Source: a virus. From it: a stretch of DNA of 20,836 bases. The notes beneath the pieces were generated by a model. That model worked only from the letters and a program-made list of their open reading frames with translations, was not told where the DNA came from and ran no database searches. Below are positions 1-7,768 of this stretch, piece after piece. Position 1 is the stretch's first letter, and each line of letters opens with the position of its first letter. Where the stretch lies: positions 1 to 20,836 of the IMG/VR virus record IMGVR_UViG_3300025769_001045, one strand, 5' to 3'. The translations under genes were made by a program, and so were the position numbers.

Positions 1-54
1 AAATTAAAAAAAAAAAAAACAAAATAATTCGTATATAACGGATATTGACCCTAA

Positions 55-149
55 GCTACCTTGTGTAACCACCGTAACCTTACCGTAACCGCTCAAACCC
101 ACGTTTGGCGGGGCTTCCAGGCCTTCGGTTACACGGTTACACCGGTTAC
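55..149. repeat. Mirrored cluster of six GTAACC/GGTTAC repeats (iteron-like)
   Basis: GTAACC occurs at 65-70, 74-79 and 85-90. Its complement GGTTAC occurs at 127-132, 135-140 and 144-149. A degenerate copy, GCTACC, sits at 55-60. Unit spacing is 8-11 bp, close to one helical turn, so bound proteins would line up on one DNA face. The two arms are arranged almost symmetrically about position 107. The central 36 bp contains a small hairpin, CAAAC-CCAC-GTTTG (94-107). The repeats themselves are directly visible; a role as replication-initiator binding site, operator or long cruciform is inference. Confidence 0.75.
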
Positions 150-152
150 GGC

Positions 153-201
153 TATTTTTATACTTTTTTTTATTTTCTATTTTATTTCCTATATATATAA
201 A
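153..201. other. AT-rich tract next to the repeat cluster (possible unwinding element)
   Basis: Forty-five of these 49 bases are A or T, with T-runs and an alternating ATATATATA stretch. It lies directly beside the repeat cluster and ends at the 10-bp palindrome AAACCGGTTT (199-208), just upstream of the SleB gene. Iterons beside an AT-rich tract is a common origin layout. It could equally be an AT-rich promoter region for the SleB gene. Confidence 0.45.
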
Positions 202-227
202 CCGGTTTTATAGTAGCCTACGATTCC

Positions 228-617
228 ATGGAACAACTTATGTGTATAGCCCTCGCAATCTACTTCGAGGCGCGTGGAGAAAGTTCTATCGGCCAGTGGG
301 CCGTGGGCAACGTGGTATTAAACCGTGTCCGTGATCCGCGGTACCCGAGTGATGCCTGCTTGGTCGTGAAGCAGGGCCCGTGGTCTTCGGGTTTACCTGT
401 GCGCCACAAGTGCCAATTTTCATTTTACTGTGACGGTAAGCCTGAAAGGGTATTTGAAGATCGCGCCTGGGTGAAAGCGGTTCGTGTTGCGGGTCTTTCG
501 ACTACTCTTGACGTAGTGGGTGGGGCCACGCATTACCACACGGACGCGGTTTTTCCTGATTGGTCCTCAGAGATGGAGTTGACCCGGAAGGTTGGAAGCC
601 ATTTGTTCTTTAAATAA
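228..617 (+). CDS. SleB-type cell wall hydrolase (probable endolysin)
   Basis: This 129-aa protein spans essentially a complete Hydrolase_2/SleB domain. Visible hallmarks are ALAIYFEARGE at residues 8-18 (E14 is the likely catalytic glutamate), AVGNVVLNRV at 25-34, CQFS at 62-65, CDG at 68-70, and the C-terminal GATHYH at 99-104 followed by P-x-W at 110-112. SleB enzymes cleave peptidoglycan glycan strands, and phages use them as endolysins. There is no signal peptide, so a holin or similar would be needed for access to the wall; none is recognised here. No clear Shine-Dalgarno precedes 228; the in-frame ATG at 240 would keep the whole domain and is an alternative start. The 3' end overlaps the convergent gene at 567-785 by 51 bp. 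Confidence 0.93.
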   Translation: MEQLMCIALAIYFEARGESSIGQWAVGNVVLNRVRDPRYPSDACLVVKQGPWSSGLPVRHKCQFSFYCDGKPERVFEDRAWVKAVRVAGLSTTLDVVGGATHYHTDAVFPDWSSEMELTRKVGSHLFFK

Positions 618-785
618 TTTTTTTGACTTTGGGTGCTTTTTCTCGAGTAGTGCCGATTCTTCGGGTAGGAGTTTTTTAATAACTCCGCCTTTGTTTAAAA
701 ATTCCTGCACGTGCCCTTCAATTTCTTTACTTCGCATTTTTTTTTGTTGTTTGTCGGGGTAAGATATTTTTTGCGGGTAGCCCAT
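567..785 (-). CDS. Small basic phage protein with FLxKGG motif, unknown function
   Basis: The 72-aa product is Lys/Glu-rich, with the core EFLNKGGVIKKL at residues 28-39. That resembles the 'FLxxGGxIxxL' core of many short phage proteins of unknown role. The charged character suggests nucleic-acid or protein binding, but no fold is recognised. No strong ribosome site precedes the ATG at 785, and the in-frame Met17 (ATG at 737) is an alternative. The gene converges on and overlaps the SleB gene, and is divergent from the 869 gene across an 83-bp spacer in which I see no convincing promoter on either strand. Confidence 0.6.
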   Translation of the reverse strand: MGYPQKISYPDKQQKKMRSKEIEGHVQEFLNKGGVIKKLLPEESALLEKKHPKSKKLFKEQMASNLPGQLHL

Positions 786-868
786 TGTATGCGATTCTAT
801 GTTGTGTTAATGTGAATAAAGGAGAAAAACTACAGTAAAGCTTAAACAATTTTTGACAGGAAAAAAAC

Positions 869-1087
869 ATGGAATTTAAATTTTTTGACAATATACCCGT
901 CCCAGAACGCAAACCAGGCGCAGAATCTAAATACGCGCCATTGCTCAAGATGAAAAAAGGACAATCTGTCATTGTAGAAACCTTAAACGACGCCAAGGCG
1001 GCACAAATGCTGTTCAGCCGCAACAACATGCTTGCCACGACGCGTAAGCAGCGAAATGGGGGCTATATGCTCTGGAGGGTTTATTAA
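869..1087 (+). CDS. Conserved-looking small phage protein, unknown function
   Basis: The 72-aa product has an N-terminal stretch with DNIPVPERK (residues 7-15), a central KMKKGQSVIVET, and a C-terminal TTRKQRNGGYMLWRVY. The pattern of Pro-rich start, 'M-x-x-G-Q-S-V' and a terminal 'RK...GYxxWR' is one I associate with short phage proteins often found near nuclease genes, but no function is known to me. AGGA at 858-861 lies 7 nt before the ATG, supporting this start. Its stop overlaps the next start as TAATG (1085-1089), so it is probably translationally coupled to the SNase-like nuclease. Confidence 0.75.
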   Translation: MEFKFFDNIPVPERKPGAESKYAPLLKMKKGQSVIVETLNDAKAAQMLFSRNNMLATTRKQRNGGYMLWRVY

Positions 1088-1491
1088 TGTACGAATACAA
1101 AGCAACCATTATAAAAATCGTGGATGGGGATACAGTCGATGTGGACATTGATCTTGGGTTTGATACTTGGCGTCGTAATGAGCGTATTCGTCTTCACGGT
1201 TGCGATACTCCCGAATGTCGCACAAGAAATAAGAAGGAGAAAGCTCATGGACTCCTCGCAAAAGAATACGTTCAAAAAGCTCTCGTCGTGGGAAGAACAT
1301 ATGCTCTCACAACAAAAGAGAAAGGAAAGTTTGGAAGATTTCTGGGCGAGTTCAAGACGGGAAAAGGAGCTATTACGAAACTCCTTATCAAAGAAAGATT
1401 GGCGGTTCCGTACACTGGGCAAAATAAAAAAGACATAGCCGCTGCGCAAGAAGCTAACCGAATAGCATTAGTAAAGGAAGGTAAATTGTAG
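1087..1491 (+). CDS. Thermonuclease-like nuclease (SNase family)
   Basis: This 134-aa protein has the staphylococcal-nuclease fold signature. It shows VDGDTV at residues 12-17 (metal-binding Asp), RIRLHGCDTPE at 33-43 with R35, D40, T41 and E43 matching the catalytic Arg and the metal/base residues of SNase, and KFGRFLG at 81-87 with R84 matching the second catalytic Arg. All key residues are present, so it should be an active Ca2+-dependent phosphodiesterase. In a phage it may help degrade host DNA or recycle nucleotides (inference). There is no signal peptide, so it acts in the cytoplasm. GGAGG (1074-1078) lies 8 nt before the ATG, and the start is coupled to the upstream gene by TAATG. Confidence 0.92.
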   Translation: MYEYKATIIKIVDGDTVDVDIDLGFDTWRRNERIRLHGCDTPECRTRNKKEKAHGLLAKEYVQKALVVGRTYALTTKEKGKFGRFLGEFKTGKGAITKLLIKERLAVPYTGQNKKDIAAAQEANRIALVKEGKL

Positions 1492-1493
1492 TC

Positions 1494-1528
1494 AAAAAAA
1501 ACCCCGCGGGAGATGGCTCAACCACGGG
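1494..1528 (-). terminator. Rho-independent terminator reading leftward
   Basis: Read on the minus strand, CCCGTGG (1528-1522) pairs with CCGCGGG (1509-1503) across a 12-nt loop, followed by G and eight U (complement of A1494-1501). One pair is G-U in the minus-strand RNA but would be a C-A mismatch in the plus-strand RNA, so the hairpin is fully formed only for leftward transcripts. There is also no U-tract on the plus side. It lies 67 bp beyond the stop of the minus-strand gene at 1595-1810 and just after the SNase stop. Confidence 0.8.
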
Positions 1529-1594
1529 TATAATCACTTCTCAGGGAGGTACAACACCTACAAGCTAGAACGTTTATATTTTTTTGTCAACAAA

Positions 1595-1810
1595 CTAATG
1601 AAAATTATCCTTAGGGTAACCTTCCTTTCGGGCATTTTGCACGTGTTTTACTAAATGCGTAAGAAGAGCTTCGGGGTCTTCAAAGTGCTCTTTCATTAAA
1701 TCTGCAACAGCTCTTATATCTTTATTCCAGGTTTTAGTATTCAAATTTTTCCATTCTATTAGTTCTTTTTCGCTAAACGCTTGATTTAAAAGGTGTTTTG
1801 CGTCGGTCAT
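1595..1810 (-). CDS. Small hypothetical protein, 71 aa
   Basis: Family not recognised. The product is soluble, charged and probably all-helical, with segments such as KELIEWKNLNTKTWN and LLTHLVKHVQNARKEG, and no membrane segment. The ATG at 1810 is preceded by AAAGGAAC at good spacing. The gene has a candidate promoter upstream (1865-1837) and a strong terminator downstream (1528-1494), so it looks like a complete single-gene transcription unit. That is the best evidence that it is real. Confidence 0.75.
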   Translation of the reverse strand: MTDAKHLLNQAFSEKELIEWKNLNTKTWNKDIRAVADLMKEHFEDPEALLTHLVKHVQNARKEGYPKDNFH

Positions 1811-1836
1811 AAGTTGTTCCTTTTATATGAATGCAC

Positions 1837-1865
1837 ATTAAATATGTTACAAGTACTTAGATCAA
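1837..1865 (-). promoter_or_regulatory. Sigma70-like promoter for the 71-aa gene
   Basis: On the minus strand TTGATC (1865-1860), a 17-bp spacer and TTTAAT (1842-1837). The predicted transcript starts near 1830, giving a short leader with the ribosome site before the ATG at 1810. The spacer contains the palindrome AAGTACTT (1851-1858). The -35 box is separated by one base from the -35 box of the opposing promoter at 1867. Confidence 0.5.
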
Positions 1866-1866
1866 G

Positions 1867-1895
1867 TTGTCACGCACATTTTTTTCCTATATTAT
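1867..1895 (+). promoter_or_regulatory. Sigma70-like promoter for the HTH/zinc-ribbon genes
   Basis: TTGTCA (1867-1872), a 17-bp spacer and TATTAT (1890-1895). Both boxes are close to consensus and spacing is ideal. The predicted start near 1902 leaves a leader of about 23 nt carrying AAGGGA (1914-1919) before the ATG at 1925. Confidence 0.6.
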
Positions 1896-1924
1896 CTGTG
1901 CTTTACAAACGGTAAGGGAAAGAA

Positions 1925-2089
1925 ATGAAAGCGCATCACGCTACCAAATATCCTTTTGAAATAGTAGAAGCCGTCCGCTATGCTAGAAACATTGAAAAGC
2001 GCTCTGTTAAGTGGATAGCCCAACAATATGACATCCCCATTGATACCCTTAGAGATTGGCTTTACAGAAACAGACGAGTTAACGACTGA
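1925..2089 (+). CDS. 54-aa helix-turn-helix protein
   Basis: A short open frame from ATG 1925 to TGA 2087-2089. It has the pattern YPFEIVEAVRYA (residues 9-20) followed by SVKWIAQQYDIPIDTLRDWL (27-46), a clear helix-turn-helix of the kind found in transposase-like and Hin-like DNA-binding domains. It is too short to be a transposase, and no DDE domain follows. A small phage transcriptional regulator is the simplest reading (inference). It has AAGGGA 5 nt upstream and a near-consensus promoter at 1867-1895. Its 3' end overlaps the next gene, in another frame, by 62 bp. Confidence 0.78.
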   Translation: MKAHHATKYPFEIVEAVRYARNIEKRSVKWIAQQYDIPIDTLRDWLYRNRRVND

Positions 2090-2285
2090 TGATGAAGCAA
2101 AATTATTTATTTGCCCAAAATGTGAAAAAAAGTTTCAGGCTTATGTAGAGACAATACAGGGAGACCCCGACATGATGCCAAAAGTAGAACTTACAATTTG
2201 CGCAGATTGCGAAAAGTCTTTAGACCCAATTAATCTGTATCTACTTTGGATGGACTGGAATAACGAAGACGATACGATTCACTAA
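2028..2285 (+). CDS. Small zinc-ribbon protein
   Basis: The 85-aa product has two Cys pairs, C29-x2-C32 (CPKC) and C58-x2-C61 (CADC), about 25 residues apart. That is a typical zinc-ribbon knuckle arrangement. The rest is acidic, with a Trp-rich C-terminus. Its function is unknown; such ribbons commonly bind nucleic acid or partner proteins. The start is uncertain: ATG 2028 lies inside the helix-turn-helix gene with only a weak GTGGA upstream, and the only other start-like codon before the first Cys pair is a TTG at 2040. Shared expression or coupling with the upstream gene is likely. The 3' end overlaps the convergent 46-aa gene by 56 bp. Confidence 0.65.
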   Translation: MTSPLIPLEIGFTETDELTTDDEAKLFICPKCEKKFQAYVETIQGDPDMMPKVELTICADCEKSLDPINLYLLWMDWNNEDDTIH

Positions 2286-2370
2286 GTTTTTGCAAAAGTT
2301 CAGGATATTCCTCAAGAAAAATTAATATCTCCTCAATGTCCTGCTCATCTAGCTGAATCGTTATTTTCAA
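2230..2370 (-). CDS. 46-aa acidic protein with TTG start, last gene of replication operon
   Basis: The frame runs from TTG (2370-2368) to TAA (2232-2230). It encodes MKITIQLDEQDIEEILIF, then EEYPELLQKLSESYRLRYSS and a short tail, a helical, amphipathic, acidic peptide. The TTG overlaps the stop of the ribbon-helix-helix gene as TTGA, the same kind of coupling seen at other junctions of this operon. No separate ribosome site is seen, which fits translational re-initiation. The family is not recognised. A small antitoxin-like or regulatory partner of the preceding protein is possible, but this is speculation. Confidence 0.5.
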   Translation of the reverse strand: MKITIQLDEQDIEEILIFLEEYPELLQKLSESYRLRYSSPSKVDTD

Positions 2371-2591
2371 AGCGTAAACTCAGGACGCGGTCGTCCTTCC
2401 TGAAGACGCTTCTTTTCTATTTCTTCAAGCAAATAAACACGATCTTTTTGACTTAGGTTTTCGTTAACCCAGGAATCGAAAATTAAACGAAGCTGTCCGC
2501 TTAAGGTTCGCCCCTCTACTTTCGATACGATGTACAGTTGATCGTACACTTCACGAGGAAGAAGCACCGATTTCCATTTGTTAGTATCCAA
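2367..2591 (-). CDS. Ribbon-helix-helix-like small protein (possible regulator)
   Basis: The 74-aa product begins with KWKSVLLPREVYDQLYIVSK (residues 5-24), a pattern of short beta strand (SVLLP) then helix. A second helix, RTLSGQLRLIFDSWVNE (28-44), follows. This is the CopG/Arc-like ribbon-helix-helix layout, a dimeric DNA-binding fold used by small repressors. The C-terminal part is charged and helical. The start codon is TTG (2591-2589), supported by TAGGAG 6 nt upstream on the minus strand. It lies 39 bp downstream of the polymerase gene in the same direction and could autoregulate the operon (inference). Confidence 0.7.
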   Translation of the reverse strand: MDTNKWKSVLLPREVYDQLYIVSKVEGRTLSGQLRLIFDSWVNENLSQKDRVYLLEEIEKKRLQEGRPRPEFTL

Positions 2592-2630: not shown

Positions 2631-4556
2631 CTACTCAGCAATTTCAACATATTCTCCCCAGTTTTCGCCCATTTCTATGTCACATTTACTAGGAACGACT
2701 AACTCCACCGCCTTAGTCATAATGTTAGATAAACTTTTAGCCTCTGCCGCATCTGTAACACTGAACGCCAGCTCGTCATGGACTTGCAGCATGGGGGTCT
2801 TACCGCTCTTGTAGCAGTCAACCATGGCCTGCTTTGTCATGTCCGCGGCGCTTGCCTGAATTAACCGGTTCAGCGCCTTATAGGTGTAAGCACGCTTAAG
2901 TCTTGTCGTTGGTCCGTAGGCCGCGGCTGCTTCTTCGTAAGGCAACGCTTTGTTCATTTCAAAACTGTCCGGCTCCCATAAATCAAACCGGCACTTACGC
3001 CCCTTTATGCTTCGCACAGAGCCCGGTGAGCGCGGATCTTCTAAGTGACGCTGTATGCCCTGGGTAAGTCCTTTAACAAACGGTACGCGCTTGTGGTACT
3101 TCTTAACAAGGGCCTTAGCGTCCTCTAGAGGGATGTCTAGTTGTCCTGCAAGTTTCTGTGCCCCCATGCCGTACATCATGGCTAAGTTAATTACCTTTGC
3201 CTGTTTACGAGGGATATCCGCCATCTCAGCAACCATCGTATGGAAGTCCATGTCAGGGTTTTCGTTATAGGCCCGCACAAACTCCTCGACACCGGGCATA
3301 TTGAGATTTCGGTAATCACCAAAAACCTTGGCGTAATGAGTCAAGATCCGTGGTTCCTGCTGCGAGAAATCTATTGCAGCCCACTTCTCCCCTTCTTCGG
3401 GTAAAAACAGCTTTCTGATAAGGGGACCTATTTCAGGGTCACGCGCCGGGATTTGTTGCATGTTCGGGTTGTTCATCGAAATGCGGCCAGAGACTGTGCC
3501 GCCTTGATCAGAACGCACTTGATTGATATGACTGTGTATCCTACCGTCGCGCGCTACGTGCTTAATTAACCCGTCGATGAAGCTGCCCTGGGTTTTATTT
3601 AAGTTACGCGCCCTAACTATAGACTGTGCAAGTTCGTGAGGATGCTCACTGAGGAAAGTCTTAGTAAAGCTTGGAGCGCCTTTTTCCGTTCGAGGGTATG
3701 TAATCCCAACTTTGTCAAACGCTTTAGCTATTGATGCTCCCGCCCAGATTTCCACGTCACATCCTGCAATATGTTTGATATGCTTGCGGACTTGCTTTTC
3801 CTCTTTTAGAAGGTGCTGCTTTGTGCGTTCCGCTTGGTCTACGTCAAAGCGTATGCCTTTCTCCGTCATCTCAACCAGACACGGAAGCAGGTCTGTCTCA
3901 AGATTCCAAATGTCCCAAAGTTCTTCTTTATTCAACAGGTTCTGAAAGTGTCCCCAGAGCTCGAGCGTGATCTCAGCATCTACTTCCGCGTAAGGACCCA
4001 CATACATAGCGGGCAACCGCCACATCTCCCCCTTAGGATCGACGCCGAACTCAACGGCCGCCGCAGTAAGTGTTTGCTCCGACTTTGTTTTTCCCAAGTA
4101 ATCGTAGCAAAGTGCGTTAAGACTATAGCTGAATCGGTTTTCGTCCAGCAGCGCAGCGGTCAACATGGTATCGATGACTCGGCCTTTAACCTCAAAACCC
4201 ATAGCACGTATCCACCCGAGGTCGTATTGAGCGTTGTGCATAATCTTATCGCCTGGCGCTTCAAACACTTTCTTAAGCCATTTGTTTATTTGCCGTGCGT
4301 CCATATTGCCGCCGCCAAGATGATTAACCGGGAAGTAGCCTTTCCACCCTGGGACCGCTATAGCGTAGCCCACGACTTCACCGTTTTTGGTAGGCCAACC
4401 CGGACCAAAGGTCTTAAGGTCCGAGTCGCGTGTTTCGACATCTATGGCTATTTCTTTTGCTTCCAGGACCGCGTCAGGGAACGGATGCTCCGGTGGAAGC
4501 CAGTCTGATTTTGGAGGAAACATAGCCATCTGTAGTTTGTTATTTGCCACTATCAT
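2631..4556 (-). CDS. polA: Family A DNA polymerase with 3'-5' exonuclease (PolA type)
   Basis: Replicative phage DNA polymerase I relative, lacking the 5'-3' exonuclease domain. Residue numbers here count from an upstream TTG at 4622. Proofreading exonuclease: IDVET (D61, E63), HNAQYD (N130, D134) and YAEVD (Y211, D215). Polymerase: motif A DFSQQEPR (418-425), motif B RKQAKVINLAMMYG (472-485) and motif C VHDE (614-617). All catalytic acidic residues are present. L480 occupies the position of E. coli Phe762. Motif A has Q-E-P where most relatives have I-E-L. No DnaJ-like zinc insertion separates the two domains. I take the first in-frame ATG (4556), giving 641 aa and a 17-bp overlap with the zinc-ribbon gene. 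The ATG at 4529 (MAMFPPKSDW) is also plausible because the conserved part begins there. Confidence 0.95.
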   Translation of the reverse strand: MIVANNKLQMAMFPPKSDWLPPEHPFPDAVLEAKEIAIDVETRDSDLKTFGPGWPTKNGEVVGYAIAVPGWKGYFPVNHLGGGNMDARQINKWLKKVFEAPGDKIMHNAQYDLGWIRAMGFEVKGRVIDTMLTAALLDENRFSYSLNALCYDYLGKTKSEQTLTAAAVEFGVDPKGEMWRLPAMYVGPYAEVDAEITLELWGHFQNLLNKEELWDIWNLETDLLPCLVEMTEKGIRFDVDQAERTKQHLLKEEKQVRKHIKHIAGCDVEIWAGASIAKAFDKVGITYPRTEKGAPSFTKTFLSEHPHELAQSIVRARNLNKTQGSFIDGLIKHVARDGRIHSHINQVRSDQGGTVSGRISMNNPNMQQIPARDPEIGPLIRKLFLPEEGEKWAAIDFSQQEPRILTHYAKVFGDYRNLNMPGVEEFVRAYNENPDMDFHTMVAEMADIPRKQAKVINLAMMYGMGAQKLAGQLDIPLEDAKALVKKYHKRVPFVKGLTQGIQRHLEDPRSPGSVRSIKGRKCRFDLWEPDSFEMNKALPYEEAAAAYGPTTRLKRAYTYKALNRLIQASAADMTKQAMVDCYKSGKTPMLQVHDELAFSVTDAAEAKSLSNIMTKAVELVVPSKCDIEMGENWGEYVEIAE

Positions 4557-4722
4557 TTCTCCAGGTGGTTTCTCTAAAAATAGCTTCAGAAAAGTTTTGA
4601 CACTCAGCGCAGTACCATCCAAGTCTTTTGTTTTCTTTCACGTTTACGACGGCAGTCGCTTTACCATTACCGCACTTTTGGCAGGTGCTGTAATACAATG
4701 GGTCTATATCTTGTTTTTTCAT
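4540..4722 (-). CDS. Zinc-ribbon protein, 60 aa
   Basis: Cys pairs C14-x2-C17 (CQKC) and C38-x2-C41 (CAEC), with GWYC leading into the second pair, form a zinc-ribbon similar to the zinc elements of primases and small topoisomerase fingers. It sits between helicase and polymerase. Its ATG overlaps the helicase stop as ATGA (4722-4719) and its 3' end overlaps the polymerase start. Tight coupling on both sides suggests a replication accessory role such as DNA binding (inference). Its exact family is not recognised. Confidence 0.82.
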   Translation of the reverse strand: MKKQDIDPLYYSTCQKCGNGKATAVVNVKENKRLGWYCAECQNFSEAIFRETTWRNDSGK

Positions 4723-6221
4723 AAATTATAAGCTCGAGAGAAATCTTGGGGTTCAACAATGAAGAGGTTTTCCATGGCGCGAGTCACGCCTACGTAAAAT
4801 ACGCGATGCAAATCATCTCCCGGATTGTTTTGTGCGGCATTTGTTAGGTCCGTAAAGATAACAACGTTCTGTGCTTCGCCCCCTTTAGTTCCGTGAATCG
4901 TGGACAGTTTAATACGAGGCACTGCGTTAAACTTCTCACCTCTACGCAAAAGAGCTGTGATATATATCCGGTCGTTGTCCGGTATCTTATCGAGAGCTTC
5001 AAACCACGGCATATCTTTAGAAACTAACAAACCATGATTTTCCACAAGCATTTCAAAAGAAAGCAAGGCATCGTCCTTACCCACTATTCTTTTCTTACCG
5101 CGTTTTATTCGGGCACCGTTGCTAGACATGTATTTATAAATTATCTGAGCAGACTCCACGTGGATTAAACCGCCGTTACGGACGCGTTCCCAACTGTTTA
5201 CCGCAGTAGATAAGCTATTAGATATGCTCCGTGAGCCATTACGCTCAAACAAATAACCCATAGACTTAAGCTCATAGGCTAACTCCGTGAGCATATAGTT
5301 GGCTTGAGCCATCACAAGCCACGACCCTTCGGACATGTCTACTCCTCGGATGTCGTAGATTCTTTGGACAGACCCTTGTTCTTCTTTGGGATTGTACTGC
5401 TTGGGGAAACGGTGATGGATACGGCTGACGATCCGCTCAGCAAGACTGTGGACTGACCGAGGGACCCGGTAGCTTTGACTGAGAACTTCGCTTCCTCCTG
5501 GGAGGTTAATGAAGTGATCGACGTCTGCCCCAGCCCAGCGGTAGATGGCTTGATCGTCGTCACCTGCACAGTACATTCTTTCGGATTTTTTATCGATGGC
5601 ATGAGCTATGTCCCATTGTAACGGTGAAAGGTCTTGTGATTCGTCTAAGAACGCAAGTTTGAACGTAGGGCACACCCGATCTGAGTTTTCTACAAACAAG
5701 CGAAGCATGTCTGTGTAATCTACTAATCGGTTGGCCGACTTGTACGTGGCGTAGCACTCGGATACGTACAGCACTTCTTCCCACGTGCTGTGTATGTTGC
5801 TTAAGTTATATTCAGCTCTAAGATCGGTTTTTTTGAGACGTGCTAAGTTTATAATCGACAAGATAGGATGTTCCGTTATCCCTGACTTTCCGTCTTCTAC
5901 TTCTACCTGTTTGATTTTGTTGAGTTGAAACCCTATACGTTCGCTAAGCTCTTTAAAATGAGCGGCTTGCATTAGGTCCTTCTCTTTTAAGTTAAGCAGT
6001 TTGTACGTCAGGCTGTGAAGCGTCCGGAAGTAAAACAAATCTGTGTCTTGGTTAAGGTTAAAACGCTCAGCAGCGCGCTCTTTAGCTTCAGCAGCGGCTT
6101 TACGAGTAAAAGCAAGAAACGCTATCTCCTGAGGGTTTACCCCATTTGATAGCGCCTGATCTACCATGTTTAAGAGCTTGGTAGTCTTACCTGTTCCTGG
6201 AGGACCAAATATCCTAAACAC
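4719..6221 (-). CDS. UvrD/Rep-like superfamily 1 DNA helicase
   Basis: The 500-aa protein carries a full set of SF1 motifs. These are Walker A GPPGTGKTT (6-14), motif Ia AFTRKAA (37-43), Walker B FLDESQD (191-197), motif III GDDDQAIYRWAG (220-231), motif IV QSYRVP (249-254), motif V STIHGTKGGEAQNVV (440-454) and motif VI FYVGVTRA (475-482) with its arginine finger. It is shorter than bacterial UvrD/Rep (about 670-720 aa), as in compact phage versions. It should be an ATP-driven ssDNA translocase/unwindase for replication or repair. The start is GTG, overlapping the primase stop as TAGTG (6223-6219), with GAGG upstream. Its stop overlaps the next start as ATGA. It is the only classical unwinding helicase in the operon. 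Confidence 0.94.
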   Translation of the reverse strand: MFRIFGPPGTGKTTKLLNMVDQALSNGVNPQEIAFLAFTRKAAAEAKERAAERFNLNQDTDLFYFRTLHSLTYKLLNLKEKDLMQAAHFKELSERIGFQLNKIKQVEVEDGKSGITEHPILSIINLARLKKTDLRAEYNLSNIHSTWEEVLYVSECYATYKSANRLVDYTDMLRLFVENSDRVCPTFKLAFLDESQDLSPLQWDIAHAIDKKSERMYCAGDDDQAIYRWAGADVDHFINLPGGSEVLSQSYRVPRSVHSLAERIVSRIHHRFPKQYNPKEEQGSVQRIYDIRGVDMSEGSWLVMAQANYMLTELAYELKSMGYLFERNGSRSISNSLSTAVNSWERVRNGGLIHVESAQIIYKYMSSNGARIKRGKKRIVGKDDALLSFEMLVENHGLLVSKDMPWFEALDKIPDNDRIYITALLRRGEKFNAVPRIKLSTIHGTKGGEAQNVVIFTDLTNAAQNNPGDDLHRVFYVGVTRAMENLFIVEPQDFSRAYNL

Positions 6222-7768
6222 TAAAAAGGTGCCTCACTTTGTTTAGTCTCGAGGTTCGGCGTCTTAACGGACGTCGAGTAACTTTGAAATGCCGGAATAG
6301 TCCATACGCGCGTGGCTTTGCCGTTGATTTTAATCGACGTTGCACTACCATCTATATCGCGTAGTCGCTGAGCAATCTTGTGAGACTTAAAATCAAAGAA
6401 ACGATTCTTATGTAAGTACGCAGTAAAGTCCTTAAGCCTAAAGTATGTGCGGTTCTCATCTTCATCCGTGTACGGACGTCTTAACAGTATTTCTTCTTTG
6501 TTTTCCGCTTTCTGCATGTCGTTACAGAACTCTTCCAACAAATCGTAAAACTGACCGGAGATACTAGCGTCCTGAGATACTTCGACAATGGAGCCATCGG
6601 TATCGGACATCTCGGTTAATAGATGATTGATTTTTCCTTCCCACGAAGGCTTAGGTGACGATTTTGGCATAAAGTTTAACTGCTCTACGCACGCCCGCTG
6701 GAAAGCCATCTGATTCATTAAGGCATCGGTGTCTAGCTCTAAAGGCTGACCGTTTACATCCATGAACCAAACAGGCGGAGTCGAGTTGTATTTGCGTAGG
6801 TTTGCGATAGTCGCACCCGACACTGCTGCGTCAATACCGAACTTCCGTGTTCTACACACGTCGGCATTACAATAATCACAGATCGGGGCGTCTTTGCACT
6901 TGTAAGCGTACTCCTTTTTTTGAAGCTGTTTCGCTACAAGGTTGACCTCGTTAAGAGGCAACGGAGGGTTCAGGTATTTAGCGTTATAAACTAAAATCTC
7001 TGACTCCCAACTGTCTGGATATGCTTTCCGTAAATAGACGCCAATGTTAAACAAGCCGTTGTTACGACCTCCCTCACTTATGGTTTGAGAACATAGTGTC
7101 TGAAGACACGGAGGGCCGTCCTTTACAATAATATTAGAGTCGGTTTGGTCTTCAATAGTCAGCGCAGAGACTTGCTCTGGCGTTTGAACGTACTGTTCAT
7201 ACAGCTCAAAAAATTCTTCTAACGTTGCCGATTGACCGTCGTCCTTTACAGCATAACGCAAGCCGTCTTCAGAATCGTAATAAGGCATATTTAAAAAGTT
7301 GCCGACATCACCACGTTCTAAACACAGCTTGATTTGTTTCGGAAAAGTCTCGCATCCGCCGTAACCTAGGGCCGCAGCAGCATGCTTCAACGTTTCCTGC
7401 ATCTGTTTCGCAGAGATCCAGTCAGAAGTAAACAAGAAACAATGCGCGCCGCCCGACTTGCTGCGACAGACAACCATCGGCAGTTTCATCTTGCGGATTC
7501 TATCAATCAATTCTTTATGGTCTAGCGGGTATTGATCAACGTCGATACAGCCCCATTTGCAATTGTTGTCTTCGTTGATCGGAATGATACCTATAGCATC
7601 ACCCTTGCCAGAGAGGTGTCCTTCCCACGTCTCCTGCGTCCTAGGGTTTTTAACTACACCAGCTTTCCCTTGTTGCTTCCCGTTTGAAGCCGCCCGGTCA
7701 ATACGATAAGTACCGTAAGCTAGTTTTAGGCCGTCAAATATCCCCGCAAATCTTTTTGCGTGTTCCAT
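6221..7768 (-). CDS. Archaeo-eukaryotic-type primase (PrimPol-like)
   Basis: The 515-aa product has the AEP catalytic pattern. Motif I is CIDVDQY (74-80, metal-binding D76 and D78), motif II is SKSGGAHCF (103-111, with S105-x3-H109), and motif III is probably in GDVGNFLNMPYY (153-164). A helical PriCT-like segment, GGRNNGLFNIGVYLRKA (233-249), follows. After it comes a Cys cluster C291, C297, C300, C305 in a 'CKDAPICDYCNADVCRTRK' context that resembles a small metal site of phage primases. It would make primers and may also polymerise DNA. It replaces the usual DnaG or T7 gp4 type. The C-terminal third has no family I can name. The start ATG has only a weak ribosome site after an intercistronic hairpin. 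Confidence 0.88.
   Translation of the reverse strand: MEHAKRFAGIFDGLKLAYGTYRIDRAASNGKQQGKAGVVKNPRTQETWEGHLSGKGDAIGIIPINEDNNCKWGCIDVDQYPLDHKELIDRIRKMKLPMVVCRSKSGGAHCFLFTSDWISAKQMQETLKHAAAALGYGGCETFPKQIKLCLERGDVGNFLNMPYYDSEDGLRYAVKDDGQSATLEEFFELYEQYVQTPEQVSALTIEDQTDSNIIVKDGPPCLQTLCSQTISEGGRNNGLFNIGVYLRKAYPDSWESEILVYNAKYLNPPLPLNEVNLVAKQLQKKEYAYKCKDAPICDYCNADVCRTRKFGIDAAVSGATIANLRKYNSTPPVWFMDVNGQPLELDTDALMNQMAFQRACVEQLNFMPKSSPKPSWEGKINHLLTEMSDTDGSIVEVSQDASISGQFYDLLEEFCNDMQKAENKEEILLRRPYTDEDENRTYFRLKDFTAYLHKNRFFDFKSHKIAQRLRDIDGSATSIKINGKATRVWTIPAFQSYSTSVKTPNLETKQSEAPF

Follow-up and report, generated by a model that had tools for sequence, protein, structure and literature searches.

What is the function of a short, strikingly ordered cluster of mirrored repeats at the edge of a marine virus contig? 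The window, as we call the whole stretch of DNA analysed (20,836 nucleotides), is a 20.8-kb virus contig carrying structural genes and a replication module composed of an SNF2-like helicase, two conserved proteins, an AEP-TOTE primase, a UvrD-like helicase and PolA; its relatives include Phage DSL-LC04 and the HTVC023P-type pelagiphages. The initial annotation, made from the sequence of the window, left the choice between a phage origin and a master operator. Here, we argue that the mirrored repeats are very probably the replication origin in a large group of marine bacterial viruses. Judging from sequence co-variation, we put at roughly 80% the probability that the opposed iteron triplets of this origin are bound by the winged-helix beta-wing of the phage's own AEP primase. 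Primases ordinarily do no more than begin new DNA strands; the wing in question is a small loop that evolves rapidly.

The motif positions bear out the arrangement first described, namely six GTAACC/GGTTAC units in two opposed sets of three, with start-to-start distances of 8-11 bp, spanning window positions 65-149 around a centre at 107 (Table 1). GTAACC occurs 19 times in the window, as against an expectation of 9.06 +/- 2.73, and this count was reached in 0 of 100 shuffles. Six of these copies are packed into 85 bp and the remaining 13 are scattered, so that the cluster is indeed more ordered than the copies elsewhere, in a pattern that the shuffles did not produce. The AT-rich stretch and the 10-bp palindrome noted beside the repeats are both present; relatives keep the AT tract and a TATATA box, but the palindrome is not conserved. 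The low-coordinate outer box falls just before position 1 and is visible in an overlapping contig (L010/L090), where the whole element lies between sleB and terS and has 50-nt arms that are 78% complementary (L010). The core contains a small variable inverted repeat of the GGCC(n)GGCC type, on weak evidence. A central hairpin with compensatory changes is not claimed, since stems of at least 4 were found in 45% of cases versus 31% of shuffles, a weak difference, and no RNA family in Rfam matched at the element site. To the left of the element, at window 228-2300 and correspondingly in relatives, lies hypervariable cargo that is swapped between close relatives and includes SleB, an SNase-like nuclease and small ORFs.

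Table 1. Features of the window discussed in the text (positions within the window)
Feature	Position	Strand	Remark
Candidate origin element	1..205	.	truncated by window edge; whole element about 230-240 bp between outer TATA boxes (L010/L090)
Iteron 1, GTAACC	65..70	+	motif count
Iteron 2, GTAACC	74..79	+	motif count
Iteron 3, GTAACC	85..90	+	motif count
Central core separating opposed arrays	91..126	.	36-38 bp in nearly all relatives
Iteron 4, GTAACC (as GGTTAC)	127..132	-	motif count
Iteron 5, GTAACC (as GGTTAC)	135..140	-	motif count
Iteron 6, GTAACC (as GGTTAC)	144..149	-	motif count
AT-rich tract beside arrays, candidate unwinding region	about 150..188	.	second tract about 1-35
Outer box CTATATATATAA (CTATATAG in relatives)	189..200	.	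TATATA-type box
10-bp palindrome AAACCGGTTT	200..209		
Cell-wall hydrolase gene (Hydrolase_2/SleB), neighbour of element	228..617	+	place not conserved in relatives
Family A DNA polymerase, replication module	2631..4622	-	
UvrD-like SF1 helicase, replication module	4719..6221	-	
AEP (TOTE-type) primase, proposed origin-recognition protein	6221..7768	-	
Predicted C-terminal winged-helix domain of primase (aa 400-497)	6278..6571	-	model, pLDDT 88
Predicted beta-wing of that domain (aa 475-492), proposed specificity region	6293..6346	-	
Codon of Ser478 (476 of G011 reference), co-varying residue	6335..6337	-	

The array is far from peculiar to this contig. Absence of the repeats from close relatives, or an equal density of them elsewhere in the genome, had been named as outcomes that would speak against a special role; instead, the array is kept in close and distant relatives and is unique in near-complete genomes. 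A scan for mirrored arrays (cut-off, a score of at least 5) gave scores of 5 or 6 in 20 relatives plus the window and in 0 of 1,640 shuffled relatives. In a set of 80 PolA-related contigs, mirrored clusters were found down to 70% PolA identity, and in every case the cluster lay a few kilobases beyond PolA with terS immediately downstream. Two further searches based on terS yielded 185 loci (some contigs being fetched twice) with 126 distinct upstream sequences, and 169 of the loci had a typable array; an array with rigid spacing lies directly upstream of terS in more than 100 related contigs. In 96 distinct elements the iterons start at 0, 9 and 17-18, and then, in the opposed orientation, at 58-60, 69-72 and 78-80. 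The outer CTATATAG boxes are 229-232 bp apart where both are present, with few copies elsewhere. The repeats are confined to one place, with at most one array in each marine contig examined, near-complete ones included, in a sample made up mostly of metagenome contigs. The element shows three features of an iteron-type origin: regularly spaced short repeats, a neighbouring AT-rich region and, in the marine phages, a single location. A GC skew without a switch at the repeats had likewise been named as speaking against them, and skew does only rise in slope at the element and keep its sign; coding strand dominates skew in these genomes, however, and the signal is confounded with gene module and strand, so that the missing switch is uninformative and does not refute an origin.

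Several variants deserve mention. No equally clear array was seen at the corresponding site in DSL-LC04, HTVC027P or 023Pt_psg01; in the last two of these, terS is inverted. HTVC023P has a different, TAGGAA-type repeat set upstream of terS (L169 11597-11765). Upstream of terS in DSL-LC04 (L089 12038-12240) are 36-nt inverted arms, 83% complementary and 131 nt apart, and these arms with their less clear iterons are perhaps a diverged version of the element. Pelagic relatives (L111, L142 and similar contigs) carry extra forward GTAAC copies past the reverse array (AAATATGTAAC), in a constant place. The GTAAC array pattern was not found in GTDB species genomes, and so there is no lead towards a prophage or satellite.

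The position next to terS, found in both marine phage groups (see below), is not required by an origin alone. Could the element instead be a packaging site (pac or cos), with the repeats bound by TerS, whose gene comes next downstream, and with terminase cleavage at the core or close to it? In the cultured phage SH-Ab 15497, which has two arrays, one is likewise just upstream of terS. Known pac sites can have intrinsically AT-rich flanks, and those of the element recall them. On the other hand, the near-complete contigs examined end elsewhere than at the element, although contig ends are weak evidence, and the cultured phages have a further array upstream of the primase gene. The question turns largely on which protein reads the repeats.

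Natural variation in the iterons provides a way to approach that reader. Five iteron alleles (GTAAC, GTTAC, GGTAC, GGGAC and GGGAT) occur on one scaffold, and all copies on both sides are replaced together. Relatives with different iterons share near-identical outer arms, core and terS, and the AT tracts and CTATATAG boxes are kept. Such concerted replacement on a conserved scaffold implies a reader whose specificity changes. TerS, the ribbon-helix-helix (RHH) protein and the VRR-NUC protein were set aside as readers, because each can be 100% identical in phages whose iterons differ in type, and the left-flank genes because they are not common to all types. A genome-wide comparison of phages with GGGAC (G010) and GGTAC (G011) revealed no clear candidate for a swapped regulator that all types possess, and in a whole-protein association within 10 kb the sole standout was the element's own non-coding ORF. 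The RHH protein is small (window 2367-2591), its KWKS DNA-contact strand is almost invariant in relatives, and its target is not the iterons. One locus upstream of terS (L227) has GGGAC in the left array and GGTAC in the right, with the remaining sequence shared; as a left/right chimera it was dropped as a case of identical flanks with different iterons, and it may have arisen either in assembly or by recombination within the iteron cassette. As for packaging, TerS is 100% identical in some pairs of phages with different iterons (GTAAC/GGTAC and GTAAC/GTTAC), no TerS column segregates with type, and the iterons track the primase instead. We consider the packaging site the least probable of the readings discussed here, and highly improbable in itself.

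The link to the primase emerged from a column-by-column scan of 15 neighbouring core proteins (5,180 columns), in which a single outlier was found, primase position 476 (numbering of the G011 reference; Ser478 in the window). Valine or serine at this position goes with GTAAC, leucine with GTTAC, and glutamine with both GGGAC and GGTAC; primases of the latter two types differ at 477-478, being LK and IR, respectively. MI/H for column 476 is 0.92, compared with 0.50 for the next column, in 37 distinct primase/type combinations; the GGGAT contigs (L230-L232) contain no primase sequence, and the comparison covers the other four alleles. The iteron type switches within five clades of primases less than 7% apart, each time in agreement with 476; to judge from these sequences, the iteron-type switches matched at this position number four or five independent events. 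Position 476 alone fully segregates the types in four of the five multi-type clades, while every other column does so in at most two; in the fifth clade, glutamine is common to GGGAC and GGTAC, yet separates both from V/GTAAC. The only variation within a type is serine for valine in more distant GTAAC clades, and because the clade of the window is one of these, with the same GTAAC, residues and bases do not correspond one to one. Contigs retrieved once the rule had been recognised provided an out-of-sample test, and they fitted it. Two sister phages, L331 (VVLK) and L332 (VLLK), have GTAAC and GTTAC, respectively, and V476L is the only one of the 15 differences between their primases that lies in the wing; two others (L323 and L329, both VLLK) have GTTAC. 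The remark in the initial annotation that no initiator gene adjoins the repeats is literally true, but the likely initiator gene is in the same window.

Structure prediction places position 476 in the wing of a putative DNA-binding domain. The full-length primase model is moderate (pLDDT 68), and conclusions therefore rest on a separate model of the C-terminal domain, which is predicted to be a winged helix (pLDDT 88, pTM 0.79) whose first wing strand, immediately past the recognition helix, carries the co-varying residue. Pfam gave no match for this DNA-binding domain and no PriCT or HTH, so that the winged helix comes from structure prediction only. The AEP domain of the primase model matches CRISPR-associated Prim-Pol (E 8e-7; sequence profile E 5e-7). 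In the PDB, the C-terminal model best matches TcpK, both alone and bound to oriT DNA (E 0.02, probability 0.99, TM 0.55). TcpK reads 9-nt tandem repeats, mainly via a wing in the major groove (PMC6137059). A TcpK-like mode of recognition by the modelled domain would agree with the co-variation, an independent line of evidence, and with the 9-bp period of the iterons, though the E-value alone is weak.

The layout, down to the CTATATAG boxes and the terS/VRR-NUC adjacency, recurs in a second marine phage group, with primases about 40% identical and iterons of the GTAAAC, GTATCC, GTACTC, GTTCTC and GACTC-like types. The iteron/wing pairs GTAAAC/VQAI, GTACTC/TK, GTTCTC/QNI and GTATCC/QH each occur in two divergent lineages, so that wing motif and iteron are shared together by phages with substantially different primases. 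Between close primases, it is mainly the wing that differs; all 5 differences among the 491 residues of the L346 and L338 primases, for example, fall there. The contigs L338 (wing TK) and L312 (QIS) do not include the element.

The same association extends to cultured phages. A tblastn search uncovered primases about 30% identical in phages of Acinetobacter, Salmonella, Klebsiella, Pseudomonas and Providencia, with mirrored GCAAC or GGAAC arrays upstream of the primase gene and, in each of three phages read whole, a second array elsewhere. In cultured Acinetobacter, Salmonella and Providencia phages, the paired arrays lie at 20961-21062 and 43040-43133 (L444), at about 20886 and 43644-43900 (L445), and at 39186 and 14182 (L447), one of each pair being just upstream of the primase gene. 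By analogy, they are reminiscent of P4 ori plus crr. Array offsets are nearly superimposable between Kokobel2 (0, 9, 17, 61, 73, 94) and a marine phage, G022 (0, 9, 17, 61, 73, 96). The wing TKL(R/K) accompanies GGAAC in four phages and ALK accompanies GCAAC, while the Acinetobacter phage JeffCo (host ATCC 23055) has VIR with GTAAC, its valine being the residue of the marine GTAAC phages. Bhz9 and phage 53 have mixed arrays, and the wing-iteron code is thus imperfect there.

Since one array precedes the primase gene in the cultured relatives with two arrays, some arrays may regulate rather than initiate, and autoregulation is possible. This brings up the other half of the original proposal, a divergent promoter/operator in which the outer TATATA boxes serve as promoters and a repeat-bound regulator controls terS and a divergent gene. 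The outer boxes do resemble outward-pointing -10 elements, and the element is upstream of terS. However, the left gene faces the element in some relatives, so the symmetry exists without a transcriptional need; CTATATAG is nearly limited to the pair in the element and is no general promoter motif; and the reader appears to be the replication primase rather than a regulator, the RHH protein being identical between types. We regard the operator as very unlikely. The origin half of the original alternative is strongly supported by the conserved, unique array and its co-variation with the predicted DNA-binding domain of the primase, while no positive evidence for the operator half appeared; both the packaging-site and the operator readings fit less well than an origin. 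How, then, does the neighbouring terS relate to an origin? In a variant that is compatible with the origin reading, the primase-bound arrays would be the origin, and the outer arms or core would serve TerS-dependent packaging, coupling the two processes. The adjacency to terS is kept across distant groups alongside the primase co-variation, and the arms and core are conserved whatever the iteron type. Binding of TerS to the arms would be an additional assumption, and the adjacency may be inherited gene order; we judge such dual use unlikely.

The case for a primase-read origin combines an array that is conserved and unique, iterons that are replaced in concert, and a wing that co-varies with them in three phage groups. 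From these we infer that the primase physically binds the arrays, that strands open and the helicase is loaded there, and that replication starts. The C-terminal beta-wing would bind the 5-6 bp iterons of both opposed triplets, such that primase copies assemble in opposite orientations on the two arrays. Once assembled, the primase would open the AT tract on one or both sides, bring in the UvrD-like helicase and make the primers that the family A polymerase extends.

A broader proposal, for which we would give somewhat less than even odds, is that these phages represent a widespread replicon class in which the primase is the origin-recognition protein and a hypervariable wing gives each lineage a private origin type. 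If true, private types would keep the initiators of co-infecting phages (or satellites) from acting on one another's origins, and a type switch would consist of a few wing substitutions plus a swap of a roughly 100-bp iteron cassette. The proposal invites one to ask what drives such rapid evolution of origin specificity, and it would extend the short list of origin-recognising primases by a phage family. On the practical side, the analysis gives a precise origin candidate, a probable reader and a residue-to-base code; a search for arrays would locate origins in many uncultured phage contigs, and the same system is carried by cultured phages of laboratory-tractable hosts.

How does this system compare with others? 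No description of this origin was found in the open-access literature. The cultured phages SH-Ab 15497, PMBT28, VLCpiS6a and Kokobel2, of Acinetobacter, Salmonella, Klebsiella and Providencia, offer a close likeness, with a homologous primase (about 30%), a UvrD-like helicase, PolA and mirrored arrays at nearly window-like spacing; they differ in having two arrays per genome and other iterons, and several carry adenylosuccinate synthetase (purZ-like) genes. The alpha protein of satellite phage P4 is a primase with an SF3 helicase domain and a C-terminal winged helix, and short iterons are present at ori and crr. The phages described here share the primase with a (predicted) C-terminal winged helix and the short iterons, and SH-Ab 15497, PMBT28 and Kokobel2 also have two iteron loci. 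Unlike P4, however, they have a separate SF1 UvrD-like helicase, no SF3 helicase domain being found, and there is only one array per marine phage. TcpK, which acts on oriT of pCW3, is the closest solved fold to the primase C-terminal domain, but it is a conjugation accessory protein of about 12% identity and not a primase. In geminiviruses, iterons of 5-6 nt vary among close relatives, each set being recognised by its cognate Rep (PMC12548392); that Rep is a rolling-circle nuclease of ssDNA viruses, and both the enzyme and the origin layout are unrelated to those considered here.

The ColE2 plasmid offers another close parallel. ColE2 Rep, an AEP primase, binds specifically to its own origin, and the primers it makes are extended by DNA polymerase I, a family A enzyme (PMC4538821); the polymerase is that of the host, and the origin is at the end of rep or just after it (PMC5304414). 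Here too, an AEP primase domain is present and a family A polymerase is part of the module. The phages differ in their AEP-TOTE catalytic domain, their phage-encoded helicase and polymerase, and their mirrored iteron arrays; in addition, the window primase gives no Pfam match to the PriCT plus HTH architecture of ColE2 Rep, and the element is about 6 kb from the primase gene, and up to about 9-10 kb in relatives. Because neither the PriCT/HTH architecture and gene-linked origin that define ColE2 nor the SF3 helicase fusion that defines P4 alpha was found here, the phage system would seem to work like both while being a member of neither.
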